A DNA stretch of 64,000 nt. Origin: Nodosilinea sp. FACHB-131 (GTDB lineage Bacteria; Cyanobacteriota; Cyanobacteriia; Phormidesmidales; Phormidesmidaceae). The translations under genes were made by a program, and so were the position numbers. The stretch covers positions 1 to 64,000 of the forward strand of contig NZ_JACJOF010000037.1 of assembly GCF_014695395.1 (NCBI RefSeq). Reading direction: 5' to 3'. The notes under the pieces were generated by a model. The model was given only the letters and a program-made list of their open reading frames with translations. It did not search any database and had not been told where the DNA came from. Shown piece by piece: positions 1,300-46,405 of this stretch; the first letter of the stretch is position 1; every line of letters starts with the position of its first letter.

Positions 1300-4200
1300 T
1301 TGCAGAATATTGCAGGCTATACCCTCCAACGGGCTATTCATGAGGGAGCGCACACCCGAGTCTATGCTGGGGTGACCCAGCCGGGCGAGCAACCGGTGGT
1401 GGTTAAGCTGCTCAAAGCGGACTATCCCTCTTTAGAAGAGATCACGCGTCTTAGACACGAATTTAGCATTCTGGATGGCTTGGACAGCCCAAAGATTATC
1501 AAGGCGCTGGCGCTAGAGCCCTACCAAAACGGGCTGGCGCTAGTGCTAGAAGACTTTGGCGGCATTGCTCTAAGCGACTATCTAGAGCAACGTCCGCTGA
1601 GCAGCAACGAGTTTCTTGCCATTGCCCTCCAGCTCACCGCTGCGCTAGCGACATTACACCAGAGCCAGATTGTTCACAAAGACATCAACCCCCGCAACAT
1701 CCTGATTCACCCGGCCAGTGGACAGGTCAAACTGATTGACTTCGACATTGCCTCGCGCCTGTCTCGAGAAAACCCAACCGCGAGCCGTCCCACACTGCTC
1801 GAAGGAACCCTTGCCTATCTCTCGCCAGAACAAACCGGGCGCATGAATCGGACGATCGACTATCGCGCCGATTTCTACTCCCTGGGGGTGACCTTTTACG
1901 AAATGCTGACTGGGCAGATGCCCTTTCCGACCACTGACCCGCTGGAGCTGGTGCATTGCCACATCGCCAAAACCCCCGCTGCCCCCGATCAGCTCCGTCC
2001 CGACCTGCCCACTGCCCTGGCTGACCTGGTGATGAAACTGCTGGAGAAGACAGCGGAGGATCGCTACCAGAGTGCGCTGGGGCTCAAGGCCGATCTGGAC
2101 CGCTGTCAGCAACAGCTGCGGGAGTCGGGAACCATCGTCCCTTTCCCCATTGGTCAACTCGACTGTTTTAGCCAGTTTCTTATTCCCCAAACCCTATACG
2201 GTCGGGACAACGAAGTAGCTACCCTGCTGGCAGCGTTTGAGCAGGTCAGTGCCGGAGCAGCGGAACTGATGCTGGTGAGCGGATATTCGGGTATTGGCAA
2301 AACCTCTCTGGTGCAGGAAGTTCATAAGCCCATTGCTCGGCAGCGGGGGTACTTTATTGCCGGTAAGTTTGATCAATTCAAGCGCAATAGCCCCTATGCG
2401 TCGCTGACCCAGGCTTTTCAAGAGCTGATGCGGCAGCTGCTGACAGAAAGTGACGACCGGATTGCCCAGTGGAAAGCCAAGCTGCTGGCGGCTTTGGGCA
2501 CGAATGGCCAGATCGTGGTGGAGGTGATTCCGGAGGTTGAGCGGATCATCGGGCCTCAGCCGGCGGTGCCCCAACTGGGGGTCTCGGAAGCGCAAAATCG
2601 GTTTAATCGGGTTTTCCAGCAGTTCATTGGGGTGTTTAGCCAGCCGGAGCATCCCCTGGTCATTTTTTTGGATGACTTGCAGTGGGCTGATCTGCCTTCC
2701 CTAAAGCTGATCGAGCTGCTGGTGACGAATCCGGAGAGCCAGTATTTGCTGCTGCTGGGTGCCTACCGCGACAACGAGGTCAGCTTAGCCCACCCCTTAA
2801 TGCACACCCTGGAGCAGATGCAAGCCGCTGGGGCCACGGTGCGCAATCTTGTGCTGCAACCGCTGAAGCAGCCCGAGGTCAGTCAGCTGGTGGCCGATAC
2901 GCTCCACACTGACGCAGCTCAAGCCCAATCTCTGGCCCAGCTGATCTTTAAGAAAACCCAGGGCAACCCCTTCTTTGTCACCCAGATTTTGAAATCGCTG
3001 CACCAGGACGGGCTGCTCTGGTTCGATTTTGACCAGGGCCAGTGGTGCTGGGATGAAGCGGTGTTGCAGAGCGTTGACATAACGGAGAACGTGGTGGAAC
3101 TGATGGTGAATCAGATCCAGAAACTCTCTGCTAAGACCCAGCAGGTGTTAAAGCTGGCGGCCTGCATTGGGGATAAATTTTCCCTGGATATGCTGGCGAT
3201 CGTGAACGAAGCCTCTCAAACAGAAACGGCTGTCGATCTGTGGGAAGCCCTACAAGCGGAATTTGTGATGCCCCTCACCCAGGCCTACAAAATTCCCCTG
3301 GTACTGGATTTAGACAAAACTCCTGATGAAGGGTTGGTTGAGCAAGCGGCGGAAAAAACCACCGCTCAGATCGTCTACCGGTTTCTGCACGACCGGGTGC
3401 AGCAGGCCGCTTACTCGTTAATTCCAGAGGCGCAACGGCGGTCAACCCATCTCAAAATTGGTCAACTGCTGCTGCAAAATATTCCAGCGGCAGAGCGCAA
3501 TGACAACATTTTTGCGATCGCCAATCAGCTCAACTACGGCGTCGGTTTACTGACCTCAGAGGCTGAAGCCTACCAGATGGCCGAGATCAACTGGGTGGCA
3601 GGCCAAAAGGCCAAAGCCGCTGCCGCCTATGACTCGGCCCTGCGCTACCTGTTGGTGGGCCTGGAACTGTTGCCAGAAACTAGCTGGCAGCAGCAGTATG
3701 ACCTGACCCTGGCCCTGCACAATGCCGCCGTTGAGACAGCCTACCTAAACGGTGATTTTGACCAGATGGAGGCCTGGGCCGCAATTGTTTTGCGTCAGGG
3801 GCGATCGCCCCTAGACACCATGACGGTGTACGAGGTCAAAATTCAGGCCTGTATGGCCCGGATAAAACAGCTAGAAGCGGTGCACTTGGGGTTGCAGGCG
3901 CTGGAACGGCTGGGGGTGAGCCTGACGTCGTCGCCCACCTTGGCCGACATTCAGCAGGTGCTGACCCAAACCGCTGGCCAGCTGGAGGGCAAAAGCTCCG
4001 CTGACCTGCTCAACCTCCCTCCTATTCGCGACGCCGAGAAACTCGCCACCATTCGCATGCTGACCAGTCTCGGATCGCCCTGTTATCAGGCCGCACCGAT
4101 GCTGTTTCCTTTAGTGATCTGCGAACAGATCGGTCTCTCCCTGCGCTATGGCAATTCGCCCTTCGCCGCCTACAGCTACGTGTGCTATGGGGTGATTCTC

Positions 4201-7200
4201 AACGGCATTTTGCAAGACAGTGAGGCGGCCTATCGGTTTGGCCAGCTCGCCCTCCAAGTGGTCGAAAAGTTTAACGCGGTAGATCTAAAAGCCAGCGTTA
4301 GCTTTATCGCCGGGGCCTGCACGCTGCACGGCAAAATTCACGTGCGCGAAACCCTGCCTCTACTGTGGGAGGGCTACCAAAGCGGTCTGGAAAACGGCCA
4401 GCTTGAATACGGCGGTTACGCAGCGATTCAGCGCTGCCACCATGCTTATTTGATGGGGCAGGAACTGCCCAAACTCGCGGCTGAAATGGCGACGATTAGC
4501 ACCACCCTGGCTCAGCTCAAGCAGGACAACGCCCTGGGCTGGAATCAGATTGTGCAGCAATCGGTGCAAAATTTGATTGACTCGCCGGAGCACCCAAGCC
4601 GCCTCCAGGGAGCCGTCTACCAGGAAGCAGCGGCCTTGCCCCTGCTCAAGGCTGGTAACGATCGCACCGGCCTGCACTACTTCTACCTCAACAAGCTGAT
4701 ACTCAGCTATCTGTTTGGCCAGTATGACCAAGCCCTAGAGGATGCGGGGTTAGCTGAACAGTACCTGGATGGGGTGAAGGGATTTTTAGTGGTGCCGGTA
4801 TTCCAGTTCTACGATGTGCTGACCCGTCTGGCCCTGGGCATAGCTGGAGCCCTGCCCCTCGACTCGGTGCTCAGCCAAGTCGAGCAGAACCAGGCGGCTC
4901 TGCGGCGGTCGGCCCAGTACGCGCCGATGAATTTTCAGCACAAGCTGGATCTGGTGGAAGCGGAGCAGGCCCGCCTGCTGGGTCAGCCCTGGCTGGCGAT
5001 GGAGCACTACGATCGCGCCATCGCCGGCGCCCGAGAGCAGGGCTATGTGCAAGAAGAGGCGATCGCCAATGAGCGAGCCGCCGAGTTTTACCAGGCTCAG
5101 GGCCGCGACAAAGTGGCCCAGGTCTACCGAGCCGAGGCCTACTACGGCTACCTGCGCTGGGGTGCGATCGCCAAGGCCCAGGCGCTAAATGCCCAGTATT
5201 CCGCCCTGGGCACCCAGACCTCTAGGCAAGAGCCCGGCCCGACGACAGCCTCGCTCACCAGCAGCTCGGTATCCACGAGCGGGCTTAAAGGCTTTGATCT
5301 CGCCACCGTCATCAAGGCCTCCCAGGCCCTGTCTGGGGAAATCGTGCTGAGCGACCTGCTCACCAAGCTGATGCAGATCGTGCTGGAAAATGCCGGGGCG
5401 GAGCAAGGGGCTTTACTGCTGGATACCGATGGACAGTTGGCGATCGCAGTCTCGGGCCAAGTCTCGAGCGAAGTTTCGGGCACGGGGGACGGTGATCGGG
5501 TGGCCGTGCAGCAGGGTGAGGCCGGGACTGGGAGCGATCGCGACAGTAGCGCTCCGTTGCCCCTGCCGCTGTCGGTGATCAACTACGTCGCCAGAACCCA
5601 GACCGCCCTGGTGCTCAGCGATGCCACCGCCGAAGACCTGTTTGCCACCGATCCCTACATCCTCGCTCACCAACCCAAATCCGTTCTGTGTGCTCCCCTG
5701 CTGCACCAGGGGAAACTGACGGGGCTGCTGTACTTAGAGAACAACCTCACCCCCGGTGCCTTTACCCCGGATCGTTTGGAGGTCTTGCAGCTGCTGGCGG
5801 CCCAAGCTGCCATTTCGATTGAAAATGCCCGCCTCTACGCTGATCTGGAGGAGGCCAACCGCACCCTGGAGGCCAAAGTGGGCGATCGCACCCTAGAACT
5901 GCGGGACAAAAACGTTCTGTTGCAGCAGGAGATTCAGGAACGGCAGCGGGCCGAAGCGGCGGCTATGGTCGCCAGCCGCGCCAAAAGCGAGTTTCTCGCC
6001 AACATGAGCCATGAACTGCGCACGCCCCTGAACGGCATTTTGGGCTATAGCCAGGTGCTCAAAAAGCACCAGACCCTCACCGAGCCGCAGCGGCAGGGTA
6101 TCAATATCATCCATCGCTGCGGCGAGTACCTGCTGACGCTGATTGACGATGTGCTCGATTTGTCAAAAATCGAAGCGCGCAAAATGGAGCTGCACCCGGA
6201 GGCCTTTCACCTACCCCGCTTTCTCGAAAACCTGGTAGAAATCTGCCGCATTCGCGCCAGCCAGAAGCAGATTGCATTGACTTACGAGGTGATCGCGCCC
6301 CTGCCCGACTATGTCTACGCCGATGAAAAGCGGCTTCAGCAGGTGCTGCTGAACCTTCTGGGCAACGCCGTCAAGTTTACCGAGGCGGGTCAGGTCTCGC
6401 TGAAGGTTGGCCCGGCCCAGGCCTGGGCCGTTGGGAGCGATACCGGGAGCGATCGCCAAGGCGCGGTCCCTGCCGCCGCAACCTCTACCGCTAATCTGAT
6501 TCGCTTTGAAGTCGTCGATACGGGCGTGGGCATTGCCCCTGGGCAGCTGGCGCAGATCTTTGACCCGTTTCACCGCACGCCAGAGTCGGGGCGACACACC
6601 GACGGCACGGGGCTGGGGCTAGCGATTAGTCGCCAGCTGGTGCAGCTAATGGGCAGCGATATTGGCGTCAGCAGCGAACTGGGTCAAGGCAGTCGGTTCT
6701 GGTTCGATCTTGACCTGGCGGCATCTCAGCCGGGCGAGACGGTCAGCCCCACCACCAGGCAGGTGATCGTCGGCTATGGGGGCGATCGCCGCACCGTTTT
6801 GGTAGTGGACGACAAGGACTATAACCGGGCCGTCATCGTCGACTTTTTGGCCCCCCTCGGCTTTCAGCTGCTAGAGGCGACCAACGGCCAGGAGGGGCTG
6901 GCCCTAGCGGTGCAGCACCGGCCCGATGTCGTACTGGTCGATCTGGTGATGCCGCTGATGGATGGGTTTGAAATGACCCGTCGGTTAAAACAAATCCCGG
7001 CGTTGCAAACCGTGGTTGCGATCGCCATTTCCGCCAGCGTGATGGAATTTGACTATCGTCAGAGCCAGTTAGCCTGCTGCGATGATTTTCTGCCCAAGCC
7101 CATCCATGAACCGGCCCTGCTGGCAAAGCTCCAGCTTCACCTGGGTCTGGAATGGCTATACGATCCTACCCCCCCAGCCCCGCTGCCCGCTGCCTCGCCC

Positions 7201-7434
7201 CAACTTTCCCTTCTCCCCCTTGCCCCCGCCGCCATTCCCTCTGGGTCTGAACTTGACACCTTGCTCAACCTCGCTCTGATGGGAGATCTCAAAGGCGTCG
7301 TGGCCCATGCCGATCGGATCGAACAGCAGCAGCCGCAGTGGGCCCCTTTTACCACTCAGCTCAAGCAGTTAGCCCTAAGCTATAAGGGAAGACAGGCCAT
7401 CGACCTGATTAAACGTTATCAACCACCGGTATGA
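1300..7434 (+). CDS. Multi-sensor hybrid kinase: Ser/Thr kinase, AAA ATPase, GAF, histidine kinase, receiver
   Basis: A 2044-residue signalling protein. Domains in order: a Ser/Thr kinase-like domain (residues 1-270) with catalytic Asp128 in HKDINPRN and a DFD (residue 147) in place of DFG; an AAA/STAND-type ATPase with Walker [10 protein letters not shown] at 328-336 and Walker [11 protein letters not shown] near 457; a long helical repeat region (about 700-1310); a GAF domain (about 1333-1520); a histidine kinase with phospho-acceptor His1571 in SHELRTPL and ATP lid GTGLGL; and a receiver with Asp1881 in LVDLVMP. It resembles the cyanobacterial HstK-type kinases. The only usable start is TTG at 1300, since the frame opens at 1273 without ATG or GTG. 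Its stop overlaps the next kinase gene. The signal sensed is unknown. Confidence 0.9.
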
Positions 7435-41139: not shown

Positions 41140-41305
41140 GGTCAGTTCCATGGCGTTTAGTGGCGGGCACTATCCTGGTTCGACCCTTGGGTCTGAGCGA
41201 CAGTGCTCTATCAGAGTGACTAGGCGATCGCCTGACGCTGACTATTGCTAAGTCGTTGGCGGAGGGAGACAACAAAATTTTTGAGCTGGTTTGGGAGCGA
41301 CGGCC

Positions 41306-42175
41306 ATGGCACAAGATTCCCTCGACAACACAGAGTCAGCGACTCTCGATCTAAAGGCTTATTTTGACCGTATTGGCTGCGGGCACCTGGGCAATGCTCT
41401 CCAGGAGGGGAAGCTCGCGCCTACTCTAGATACCCTCAAAGCCATTCAACAGGGCCACACCAGCACCATTGCCTTTGAGAATCTCAGCTCGTTTTTTCAC
41501 CAGCCCGTCTCCCTAGCGCTGGAAGATCTACAGCAGAAACTCATCCACGACCAGCGGGGTGGCTACTGTTTTGAACAAAATCTGCTGCTGCGATCGGTGC
41601 TTGTGGACTTAGGCTTTCAGATCACGAACCTGGCCGCCCGCGTGCGGTGGAATCTGCCGAAGGACATCATCACGCCCCGCAGCCACATGCTGCTGAAAGT
41701 GGATATTGATGAGACTTCGTACATCGTCGACGTGGGCTTTGGCGGTCTAACAATGACAGAACCGCTTACCCTAGTGCCAGAGCGACCGCAATCTACCTCC
41801 CATGAACCCTACCGCCTCACGGTAGCTGGCCAGACCTACTGCTTAGAAGCCCAACTCAACCAGGTGTGGAAACCGCTGTACTGCTTTGATCTGCAAGCAC
41901 AGCAGCGCTGCGATTACGAAGTGAGCAATTGGTATGTATCAACCTATCCCCAATCGCTGTTTGTCAACTCGCTAATTGTGGCTCGGCCTGGGAACGGCTA
42001 CCGCCATGCCCTGCTCAACAATCAGTTGACCACGCGCTATCTCGACGACCGCTCTGAGCAGCGTCTGTTGACCACTGCCACCGAACTGCACGATGTGTTG
42101 AGCGACGAATTTGGGTTGCGGGTGCCCGAGACCTTAGATCTACAGCAAGCCCTAGAACGCTTCGCGGCATCCTAG
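41306..42175 (+). CDS. nat: Arylamine N-acetyltransferase
   Basis: About 289 residues from ATG at 41306; a TTG at 41291 would add five. The catalytic triad is visible: Cys in RGGYCFEQN (about residue 79), His in PRSHMLLKV and Asp in YIVDVGFGG. The TSTIAFENLSSFF helix near residue 45 is typical. The enzyme moves an acetyl group from acetyl-CoA to aromatic amines or hydrazines. Stand-alone gene, convergent with the FKBP gene. Confidence 0.93.
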   Translation: MAQDSLDNTESATLDLKAYFDRIGCGHLGNALQEGKLAPTLDTLKAIQQGHTSTIAFENLSSFFHQPVSLALEDLQQKLIHDQRGGYCFEQNLLLRSVLVDLGFQITNLAARVRWNLPKDIITPRSHMLLKVDIDETSYIVDVGFGGLTMTEPLTLVPERPQSTSHEPYRLTVAGQTYCLEAQLNQVWKPLYCFDLQAQQRCDYEVSNWYVSTYPQSLFVNSLIVARPGNGYRHALLNNQLTTRYLDDRSEQRLLTTATELHDVLSDEFGLRVPETLDLQQALERFAAS

Positions 42176-42849: not shown

Positions 42850-43599
42850 TTACCCAAACCGGTACCCAAACCCCCGCAGCGTCGTTACATACTGCGGGTG
42901 TGCTGGGTCGTGCTCAATTTTTTCTCGCAGCCAGCGAATGTGCACATCTACGGTTTTGCGATCGCCCACAAAATCGGCTCCCCACACGGTCTGAATCAGC
43001 TCTTCCCGCGACCAGACCCGGTTAGGGCTCTGCATAAACAGCTCTAAAATGCGAAACTCCTTAGGCGATAGATTCACCTCTTGCCCCGCCACCAGCACCC
43101 TAAACTCCGTAGCGTGGAGCACGATATCGCGGTAGGTCAAAGTAGCTTTGTCAGGCTGCGCCGCTGACCACTGGTATCGCCGCAACAGGGCGCGACAGCG
43201 GGCAATGAGTTCGCGCATGCCAAAGGGCTTGGGCAAGTAGTCGTCGGCACCCACCTCCAGACCCACTACCCGATCCATTTCGGTTCCCTTGGCACTCAAA
43301 ATCAGAATCGGCATATCCAGATTGTGGTGGCGCATCATCCGACAGATGTCGAGCCCGTTAACGCCGGGCAGCATGAGGTCAACAATGGCCAAATCAATGT
43401 CTAGGCCAGCGAAACCATCTCCAGCTGGTGGAAACATTAGCTCTAGGGCGCGGTGGCCCGACTCGGCGGTGACCACCTGATAGCCCTGCTCCGTCAGCGC
43501 CAGGGCCACGGTTTCGCGGATCAGGTCTTCGTCGTCAATAATTAAAATGCGCTCTTGCACCGTCGACAACGACGCTCGACCAGGGGAGATTTTTTGCAC
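42850..43599 (-). CDS. OmpR/PhoB-type response regulator
   Basis: 249 residues. Receiver (about 17-135) with acidic pocket IIDDEDLIRE, phospho-Asp in LAIVDLMLPGVNG and Lys in YLPKPFG; winged-helix DNA-binding domain (about 150-249) with VNLSPKEFRILELFMQSPNR and VDVHIRWLREKIE. The closing YVTTLRGFGYRFG is standard. It resembles cyanobacterial SphR/RpaB-class regulators, but I cannot place it among them. The gene upstream on the same strand encodes a histidine-kinase-like protein that lacks its phospho-His, 220 bases away. Confidence 0.9.
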   Translation of the reverse strand: MQKISPGRASLSTVQERILIIDDEDLIRETVALALTEQGYQVVTAESGHRALELMFPPAGDGFAGLDIDLAIVDLMLPGVNGLDICRMMRHHNLDMPILILSAKGTEMDRVVGLEVGADDYLPKPFGMRELIARCRALLRRYQWSAAQPDKATLTYRDIVLHATEFRVLVAGQEVNLSPKEFRILELFMQSPNRVWSREELIQTVWGADFVGDRKTVDVHIRWLREKIEHDPAHPQYVTTLRGFGYRFG

Positions 43600-43822: not shown

Positions 43823-45241
43823 CTACCGTTGACAGGCGACCCCAGTCGCAGCCGGGTACCCCAACTCTGACTGCGCTTTGGTACTCTCTAACCCTGGCAA
43901 CAGCACCATCAGCCGACAGTCGCTATCCCCATTTCCCTGGATGACCAGCTGTCCGCCGTGGCGCTGCACCAGGTGCTGACCCAGTAAGATGCCGAGCAGA
44001 GAGCGAGGGGGTTGACGAGTCACTGGCGAAGCTTGGAGTACGGTCACTACTTCCTGGGGTAGCCCCTCCCCTAGCCAAGGATTAGATAGCCACAGGGCCA
44101 GGGCCAGGGTCTTGCCCCGCCGACAGGCATGAATGCGTAGAGCACCGTTTTCCCCGGCCACCTGCATGATGCTGAAGGCTAGGTGATATAAGATTTGCTT
44201 GACCACGCGCTGGTCCAGAATCCACTGGCTTTCGCCGGGTTCTACAGAGAGACTGAGGGTTTGGGCGCTGGCTTCGGCCAGGGGGGCCAGGGTTGTCAAC
44301 ACCTGCTGACCCAGGGCTTCAATATCAACAGCGGTCGGCACCAGGTCGAAGCGTTCGGTCTCTAGTGGGTTGAGGTCGATGAGTTCTTCTACCAGAGCCA
44401 TCAGAATCTGGCTGCTACGGTGCACAATGTCAGTGTATTCCCGTTGTTTGGGGGTGAGGGGGCCATAGATTTCTCGGCTGAGCATGGTGGTCATGCCGAG
44501 CACCGTGGTCAGGGGGCTGCGTAGCTCCTGGGTGAGCTGGCTAATCAGGTTGAGGTGCACCCGATCCACCAGAGATTCTAAGGGAGCCTGAGGGGCAGGA
44601 ATCAGGTAGGTGGCTCGATGGCGTTCGTACTCGCTCATGCCCCAGCGAGCCGCCATGGCTAGAAACCCCAGCTCTTGGGCGGTGAACGCTCTCGGCTGCA
44701 CATCCATGACGGCTAGGGTGCCGATGCAGGTGCCCTGACCAGTCATAAGCGGGACTCCGCCATAGGCTCTAATGCCGTAGGCCATGGCTAAATTGCCTTG
44801 AGCCAGGACTGGGTTTTCAAGTGTGTCGGTCACCAGCAGGGGTTGCTCGCTATCGAGAATGTAGACCCCAAACCCCTCCACGAGGGAAAGCTGACGCTGC
44901 TGCGATAGGGGGTTGCCTACTCCTAGGGATGACAGTCCATGGGCGGCTCGCACGTACTCGGTTTGGCTGTCGGCCAAGGTGACCACAGCGATGGGTACAC
45001 CAAGGAAGCGAGCCGCCATTTGAACGGCTTCTTCCCAGGCTGGGATGCTGCTGGGTGAACTGAGCTCAAGGGTCGCGATCGCCTGGCTGCGCCGCTGCTG
45101 GCGCTCAACCCAGGACAGACCTTGGAGAGAACAACAGGGCCAGATTTGCGGGGGAATGGCCGCTTCATTCGCCGCTTTACCCTCGGGCACCACTGGAAAC
45201 ACAGAAACGCTCATGGCCAAGCCCAACCCCTGATGAAACAC
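43823..45241 (-). CDS. GAF-domain histidine-kinase-like protein without phospho-histidine
   Basis: 472 residues (ATG at 45214 is an alternative start). A GAF domain occupies about 55-205 (FLGVPIAVVTLADSQTEYV, GTLAVMDVQPRAFTAQE). The dimerisation helix that follows reads SQLTQELRSPLTTVLGM, where Gln stands in the place of the His of SHELRTPL. The ATPase part is also reduced: the N box (VVKQILYHLAFSIM) lacks the usual Asn, and only LLGILLGQHLVQRHGG of the G2 region remains. So it is probably not a kinase but a signalling scaffold or phosphatase-like partner. Next to an OmpR-type regulator on the same strand. Confidence 0.85.
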   Translation of the reverse strand: MFHQGLGLAMSVSVFPVVPEGKAANEAAIPPQIWPCCSLQGLSWVERQQRRSQAIATLELSSPSSIPAWEEAVQMAARFLGVPIAVVTLADSQTEYVRAAHGLSSLGVGNPLSQQRQLSLVEGFGVYILDSEQPLLVTDTLENPVLAQGNLAMAYGIRAYGGVPLMTGQGTCIGTLAVMDVQPRAFTAQELGFLAMAARWGMSEYERHRATYLIPAPQAPLESLVDRVHLNLISQLTQELRSPLTTVLGMTTMLSREIYGPLTPKQREYTDIVHRSSQILMALVEELIDLNPLETERFDLVPTAVDIEALGQQVLTTLAPLAEASAQTLSLSVEPGESQWILDQRVVKQILYHLAFSIMQVAGENGALRIHACRRGKTLALALWLSNPWLGEGLPQEVVTVLQASPVTRQPPRSLLGILLGQHLVQRHGGQLVIQGNGDSDCRLMVLLPGLESTKAQSELGYPAATGVACQR

Positions 45242-45358: not shown

Positions 45359-46405
45359 TCAGTCTTGAGGTACGGCAAAGACAGTCGTGGCAGCGGCTGC
45401 CGCTGCCGCTGCTTTGGCCTGGTCAAGCAGATCCCAAATCTGCTGTAGCATGGGGCCTAAACCCGTGCCGGCTACGGCCGAAATGCCATATACCGGCCCC
45501 GGCACCAGCGTTTCGAACTGATGGATCAGCTCGGCTAGGGCTTCAGGGGTGAGGGCATCGACTTTGTTGAGGGCCAAAACTTGGGGGCGATCGCTTAGGT
45601 CGCGTCCGTAGGCCGCAAGCTCCTGCTGGATGGTGTGGAAGTTCTCCACCGGCTGCTCGGCGGTAGCGTCGACTACATGCAGCAGCAGTCGAGTGCGCTC
45701 AATGTGGCGCAAAAACTCATGGCCTAGCCCTAACCCCTGGTGTGCCCCTTCAATAAGGCCGGGGATGTCGGCAAACACGGTGCCGTCGCCCGAGGGCCGG
45801 CGCACCACCCCCAAATTGGGAATGAGAGTCGTAAACGGATAGTCGGCAATTTTGGGCCGCGCCGCCGACAGGGCTGAAATTAGGGTTGACTTGCCCGCGT
45901 TGGGTAAGCCGACAATGCCGACCTCGGCCAGCAGCTTAAGCTCTAGGCGCAACCGCCGCTCTTCACCCGGCAATCCAGGCAGGGCGTGCTCTGGGGCGCG
46001 GTTGCGGTTGCTGAGAAAGTGGCGGTTTCCCAGTCCACCCTTGCCGCCCTGGGCCACGCAGAGGAGCTGGCCAGGCTCGACTAAATCACCCATCAGCTGA
46101 TCAGTGGCCACATCGTAGATAGCGGTGCCGCAGGGAACATCGAGGTATAGATCGACTCCGGCGGCACCGGTCATGTTTTTGGGGCCACCCCGCTGACCAT
46201 CGTCGGCCTTAAAGCGGTGGGCGTAGCGAAAATCGAGTAGGGTTTGAAGCTGCTGGGTAGCCCGCAGGTAGATTGAGCCACCGGGGCCACCGTTGCCCCC
46301 CGCTGGCCCGCCAGCGGGAACGTACTTCTCGCGCCGAAAGGCGACGGTGCCATCGCCGCCGTCGCCAGCAATTACTTCAACTTCAGCCTGATCAATAAAC
46401 TGCAT
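45359..46405 (-). CDS. obgE: Obg GTPase
   Basis: 348 residues. The glycine-rich Obg fold (1-160) contains [21 protein letters not shown]-like spacing, and the GTPase domain has P loop [10 protein letters not shown] (about 167-176), [10 protein letters not shown] in switch II and NKVD. The C-terminus ends in an Ala-rich tail without the long extra domain. Obg binds the large ribosomal subunit late in assembly. Its ATG overlaps the stop of the DUF4168 gene (TAATG), so the two are coupled. Confidence 0.95.

Follow-up and report, generated by a model that had tools for sequence, protein, structure and literature searches.

A putative family of cyanobacterial pseudo-histidine kinases with glutamine at the phospho-acceptor position

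To our knowledge, DivL of Caulobacter is one of only a few pseudo-histidine kinases whose workings are understood. RetS of Pseudomonas is membrane-bound with a periplasmic sensor, and the plant chloroplast sensor kinase (CSK) has lost the phospho-accepting histidine. DivL is described in the cited part of PMC4211667 as having neither kinase nor phosphatase activity and as binding DivK~P; the same part describes its ATP binding as poor. Hik2, as presented in the cited part of PMC13421787, is a cyanobacterial GAF-containing sensor kinase without membrane domains.

Here we describe a gene of Nodosilinea sp. FACHB-131, located in a stretch of 64,000 nucleotides that was analysed as a whole (the window). 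With a probability of roughly 65%, we read its product as belonging to a family of cyanobacterial pseudo-histidine kinases; it would take in a signal through a GAF domain and act by binding a receiver or another histidine kinase, with no phosphorylation. With the DivL type of pseudo-histidine kinase it shares a HisKA domain and a HATPase-like fold, the loss of both the acceptor and the ATP site, and conservation of the gene. Among the papers listed by searches of the open-access literature, we saw no description of such a family.

The gene and its family

The open reading frame at 43823-45241 lies on the minus strand and encodes 472 residues from a GTG codon. Translation more probably begins at the ATG at 45214, which would give a protein of 463 residues, since in several congeners the opening codons of the matching region contain an in-frame stop. 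The features of the locus are as follows.

43823..45241, minus strand: coding sequence of the putative pseudo-histidine kinase, starting with GTG at 45241 or, more likely, ATG at 45214
44645..45034, minus strand: GAF domain, residues 70-199 (Pfam PF01590, 3.2e-14; pLDDT of 87-97 in 10-residue blocks)
44357..44551, minus strand: HisKA/DHp domain, residues 231-295 (Pfam PF00512, 2e-12; 51.2 bits in the whole-genome search)
44528..44530, minus strand: codon of Gln238, at the position of the phospho-accepting His (from the sequence; Gln in 129 of 144 members)
43892..44344, minus strand: degenerate catalytic/ATP-binding (CA) domain, residues 300-450 (ATPase-like fold in the model; no HATPase_c match here)
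44162..44197, minus strand: degenerate N-box QILYHLAFSIMQ, with Ser357 at the Asn position (alignment)
44057..44083, minus strand: NPWLGEGLP at the position of the G1 box (DxGxG), without the G1 Asp (alignment)
43979..44002, minus strand: degenerate G2 box SLLGILLG (alignment)
42850..43599, minus strand: response regulator of the OmpR/PhoB type (usual receiver residues, by eye; a neighbour in most of the genus)
45359..46405, minus strand: GTPase of the obg/cgtA type, upstream neighbour, given for context only (neighbourhood)

The GAF and HisKA domains are supported by their Pfam matches (3.2e-14 and 2e-12), and the DHp assignment of the latter also by the structural model. HATPase_c gave no Pfam match in this protein at E-values up to 1. 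The AlphaFold model (mean pLDDT 79.5, pTM 0.52) keeps the GAF, DHp and CA folds; since the pTM is low, the arrangement of the domains relative to one another is uncertain. A scan for promoters and terminators at the locus returned nothing above chance.

Within its own genome the protein stands apart, the best match scoring 1034 bits and the next 73 bits. A single-sequence search with E-values up to 1e-25 produced matches in 201 of the 388 genomes of the class. A profile search of a phylum sample at 1e-60 detected the family in 15 of the 21 genomes that belong to the class of the window and in none of the 38 outside it.

Two plus-strand reading frames were noticed elsewhere in the window. A very large one at 1300-7434 encodes a histidine kinase of 2044 residues with canonical HisKA and HATPase_c domains, and the one at 41291-42175 appears to resemble an arylamine N-acetyltransferase.

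The phospho-acceptor and ATP sites

The H box of the protein reads LTQELRSPL, and Gln238, encoded by CAG at 44528-44530, occupies the place of the phospho-accepting histidine, as the sequence-only reading had claimed. Glutamine is also the usual state among the orthologues that this reading had proposed to collect: in 144 in-family sequences the position holds Gln in 129, Glu in seven, His in five, and Arg, Asp and Ser in one each. These 144 include at least two pairs that are likely the same record (L022/L054 and L045/L056) and the fragments L147 and L152-L154; L030-L039 and L155-L158, being other histidine kinases, were left out. The glutamine is encoded by CAG in 70 sequences and by CAA in 59. 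The patterns used to collect the 80-locus set did not cover the H box, so the way of searching does not account for the Gln count in that set.

A private mutation of Gln238 is ruled out by these counts. Orthologues with His, which had been named as evidence for such a mutation, do occur in five cases (L101, L113, L116, L059 and L024), but in each of them the four nearest neighbours in the tree all have Gln, and all five lack the N-box Asn. These five proteins are possible acceptors of phosphate in trans.

The loss of histidine at Gln238 is beyond chance. The genome has 97 HisKA matches, and of the 96 others 94 carry His, one has Gln together with an ATPase domain, and one, below threshold, has Tyr. 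In a published survey, 722 of 76,471 HisKA domains (0.9%) were without the histidine (cited part of PMC12632262). The one other Gln-bearing match of the genome is that of L328 (G000:C20:566200-568700), whose HisKA domain at C20:567294-567485 reads GQELRTPL, with Gln for the phospho-His; this protein retains its N, G1 and G2 boxes and is a different kind of His-less kinase.

Changes were counted by parsimony on a FastTree tree built without the Gln column. The Gln site changes 13 times in all, five times if His is scored against all else. This compares with a median of 12 for the DHp domain, although among the full set of 427 sites 68% change faster than this one. Several DHp positions do not change at all (G249, M250, G260, K265, Q266, Y269 and S276), and the H-box face is not among these. 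With a count so near the DHp median, a special role for the glutamine is not apparent, and the idea that Gln is a new conserved functional residue is unsupported.

The same counts bear on whether the protein could be a phosphatase only, dephosphorylating a response regulator through Glu/Asp at H+1 and Thr/Asn at H+4, a reaction for which His is not strictly needed. According to the cited part of PMC12632262, His is indeed not essential for the phosphatase activity of HisKA proteins, and the family has Glu/Asp at H+1 in 136 of 144 members and Thr/Asn at H+4 in 114, with Ser in a further 21. However, with 14 changes at H+1 and 15 at H+4, neither site evolves more slowly than the median DHp position, and among the exceptions to the motif are Gln, Lys and Asn at H+1 as well as Ala, Gly and Leu at H+4. 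The protein described here itself has Ser at H+4, and DivL, likewise a pseudo-kinase, is no phosphatase in the cited part of PMC4211667. The site-change counts therefore speak both against a new catalytic role for the glutamine and against a dedicated phosphatase, which we regard as unlikely.

At the ATP site, the protein has LYHLAFSIM as its N-box, LSNPWLGEGLP at the place of G1, without the Asp, and SLLGILLG as G2. The absence of the N-box Asn, already recognized from the sequence, is thus borne out, and the losses extend to the Asp of G1 and to the first two glycines of G2. Across 143 aligned members the N-box position is Ser in 118 and Gly in 12, with others in the remainder and Asn in only one; the G1 Asp is found in none. 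In contrast, all 13 comparison kinases have both the N-box Asn and the G1 Asp. The first, second and third G2 glycines are present in 2, 1 and 127 of the 143 members, respectively, and glycines also align within the G1 region of the family. Neither the phospho-accepting His of a catalytic HisKA kinase (Gln238 here; His in five of 144 members) nor its set of ATP-site residues (N-box Asn, G1 Asp, G2 glycines) is therefore in place. Weak nucleotide binding by the family is possible, given the third G2 glycine, the G1-region glycines and the weak detection of HATPase_c in 36 of 39 aligned family members.

The gene neighbourhood

The neighbourhood was examined in 120 longer loci, consisting of the set of 80 and a second set of 40 that includes three congeners. 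In loci with enough flank, gun4 lies directly upstream of the pseudo-kinase gene in 16 of 73 (80-locus set) and 11 of 37 (40-locus set), the latter 11 being spread over ten families. The next gene downstream is ictB in 47 of 75 and 16 of 38, respectively. One representative of each was assigned by profile (Pfam GUN4, 1.4e-65, plus GUN4_N; NCBIfam TIGR00947, 637 bits, cut-off 366), and the other gun4-like and ictB-like neighbours were called by phmmer at E-values up to 1e-35. The order gun4 – pseudo-kinase – ictB is probably an old arrangement and pairing with an OmpR-type regulator probably late, as far as the distribution of these genes indicates.

The recurrent gun4/ictB neighbourhood offers a concrete first guess on physiology, gun4 being a regulator of chlorophyll synthesis; this possible link is the most interesting lead. 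The placing may reflect a functional link to photosynthetic physiology, in which the GAF domain would sense redox conditions or the state of a tetrapyrrole and the protein would modulate, by contact, either a NarL-type regulator or an active kinase, but we hold this to be quite unlikely. Synteny is no proof of a functional link, because smpB is also part of the block and gun4 is not adjacent in most loci. A NarL-type regulator is found 2.9-4.3 kb downstream, with smpB between, in 34 of 80 and 2 of 40 loci. A weaker-scoring one is found upstream in 9 of 80 and 8 of 40, at 0.9-2.7 kb except in L223, where it is 7 kb off and on the other strand. Both NarL-type neighbours may be mere synteny.

In the window the pseudo-kinase gene is flanked by obg upstream and by the OmpR regulator downstream, with FKBP next after the regulator. 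The OmpR-type neighbour reported by the sequence-only reading is indeed there, at 42850-43599 on the same strand, 223 bp downstream. The regulator adjoins the pseudo-kinase gene in 18 of the 23 genus loci; L042, a relative that belongs to a different genus of the same family, has the pair too. In the 18 genus loci it is on the same strand, 36-534 bp downstream as measured between stop-to-stop frames. This arrangement and the receiver of the regulator, which by eye keeps its acidic pocket, Asp and Lys, would be consistent with a dedicated co-regulator of the adjacent OmpR regulator within the genus.

However, within the flank covered, the other five genus loci lack the regulator beside the gene, and the remaining longer loci that were surveyed did not have the two side by side either. 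In two genomes (G002 and G015) the two genes sit apart, and in two more (G001 and G018) the kinase-like gene is present with only a regulator sister of 62-63% identity. Regulator matches of 52-64% identity were listed for 37 of the 38 genomes, and the exception, G005, has the window-type copy alone; the window's regulator is itself 61% identical to a sister in its own genome. Pairing with OmpR as a rule of the family is therefore rejected, the adjacent regulator is at best a genus-level partner, and the co-regulator reading is improbable. The earlier suggestion that the protein may control its neighbour without phosphorylating it is supported in its second part: the protein appears unable to phosphorylate, and 129 of 144 members have Gln. 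The part concerning control is weakened, because adjacency is limited to the genus and L042 and because the Gln site is unremarkable (13 changes against a median of 12).

The 61%-identical sister of the window's OmpR regulator occurs at L189 (4015-4701 and 4913-5674), where it adjoins a NarL-type regulator; the latter is 56% identical to that of L094, which is of the type present in 34 of 80 loci about 3 kb downstream of the pseudo-kinase gene.

Mode of action and comparison with known systems

Over residues 28-452, dN/dS ranged from 0.08 to 0.27 across ten pairs, with purifying selection in all ten. For the pair at 0.27, dS is as low as 0.04, and dN/dS within the GAF domain is 0.66. The CA domain gave at most 0.22, so this inert domain is maintained. 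Despite the variable Gln site with its 13 changes, whole-protein purifying selection in all ten pairs and the family-wide loss of the key ATP-site residues make a decaying pseudogene, or a kinase of unusual chemistry active on another residue, very improbable.

We return to the reading of the protein as a pseudo-histidine kinase that acts by binding. Phosphorylation of the adjacent regulator is not expected, as the reaction needs both the His, which is absent, and bound ATP, which is unlikely. A signal received by the GAF domain would alter the DHp helix bundle together with the inert CA domain; the protein would then bind a receiver domain or another histidine kinase, with no transfer of phosphate. 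Action on another kinase might be that of a decoy, as the sequence-only reading suggested, or take place in a heterodimer. Because the GAF domain, the DHp helices and the ATPase-like shell that are kept resemble DivL, we infer a GAF-driven change in the contacts of the DHp domain and continued signalling by contact. A candidate partner is the L236 kinase, which has the most similar DHp among the 96 own-genome HisKA domains (39% identity over 64 residues; the next has 33%). A family kept across many lineages of the class without the acceptor or the key ATP residues would be a good system in which to study what use a histidine-kinase scaffold has once its chemistry is gone.

The best fold matches of the DHp-CA region were RetS (Z 17.3), GacS (16.9) and DivL (16.7), with HK853 at 16.3. 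The active kinases GacS and HK853 reach scores close to those of the others, so the fold does not separate active from inactive kinases. HK853, a HisKA kinase/phosphatase of Thermotoga, has the same DHp-CA fold (Z about 16, 10-11% identity); unlike the protein described here, it is an active kinase and phosphatase, as stated in the cited part of PMC7005713. By description, Hik2 and CSK may be similar in kind to the family, but Hik2 differs in being an active kinase with an iron-sulfur GAF domain (cited part of PMC13421787). The Hik2/CSK type would be marked by such an iron-sulfur cluster and by phosphotransfer to Rre1.

RetS (PDB 6dk7/6dk8/7n0e) is the top fold match, with several others within 1 Z unit and a sequence E-value of 7e-12. 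Its structure has been solved in complex with GacS, according to the entry title. Orphan modulators of the RetS type contact the hybrid kinase GacS; the likeness here is one of fold only, and RetS, by alignment, retains its His. The family may work by contact in the way of either DivL or RetS. In DivL (PDB 4q20), as in the protein described here, the DHp and CA folds are of the HisKA type and another residue stands in for the phospho-His; the structural match has a Z of 16.7 over 206 residues at 15% identity, and the sequence match an E-value of 7e-07. As far as the cited source covers it, DivL differs in having Tyr at the site and PAS sensor domains, whereas the present protein has Gln and a GAF domain and comes from another phylum.
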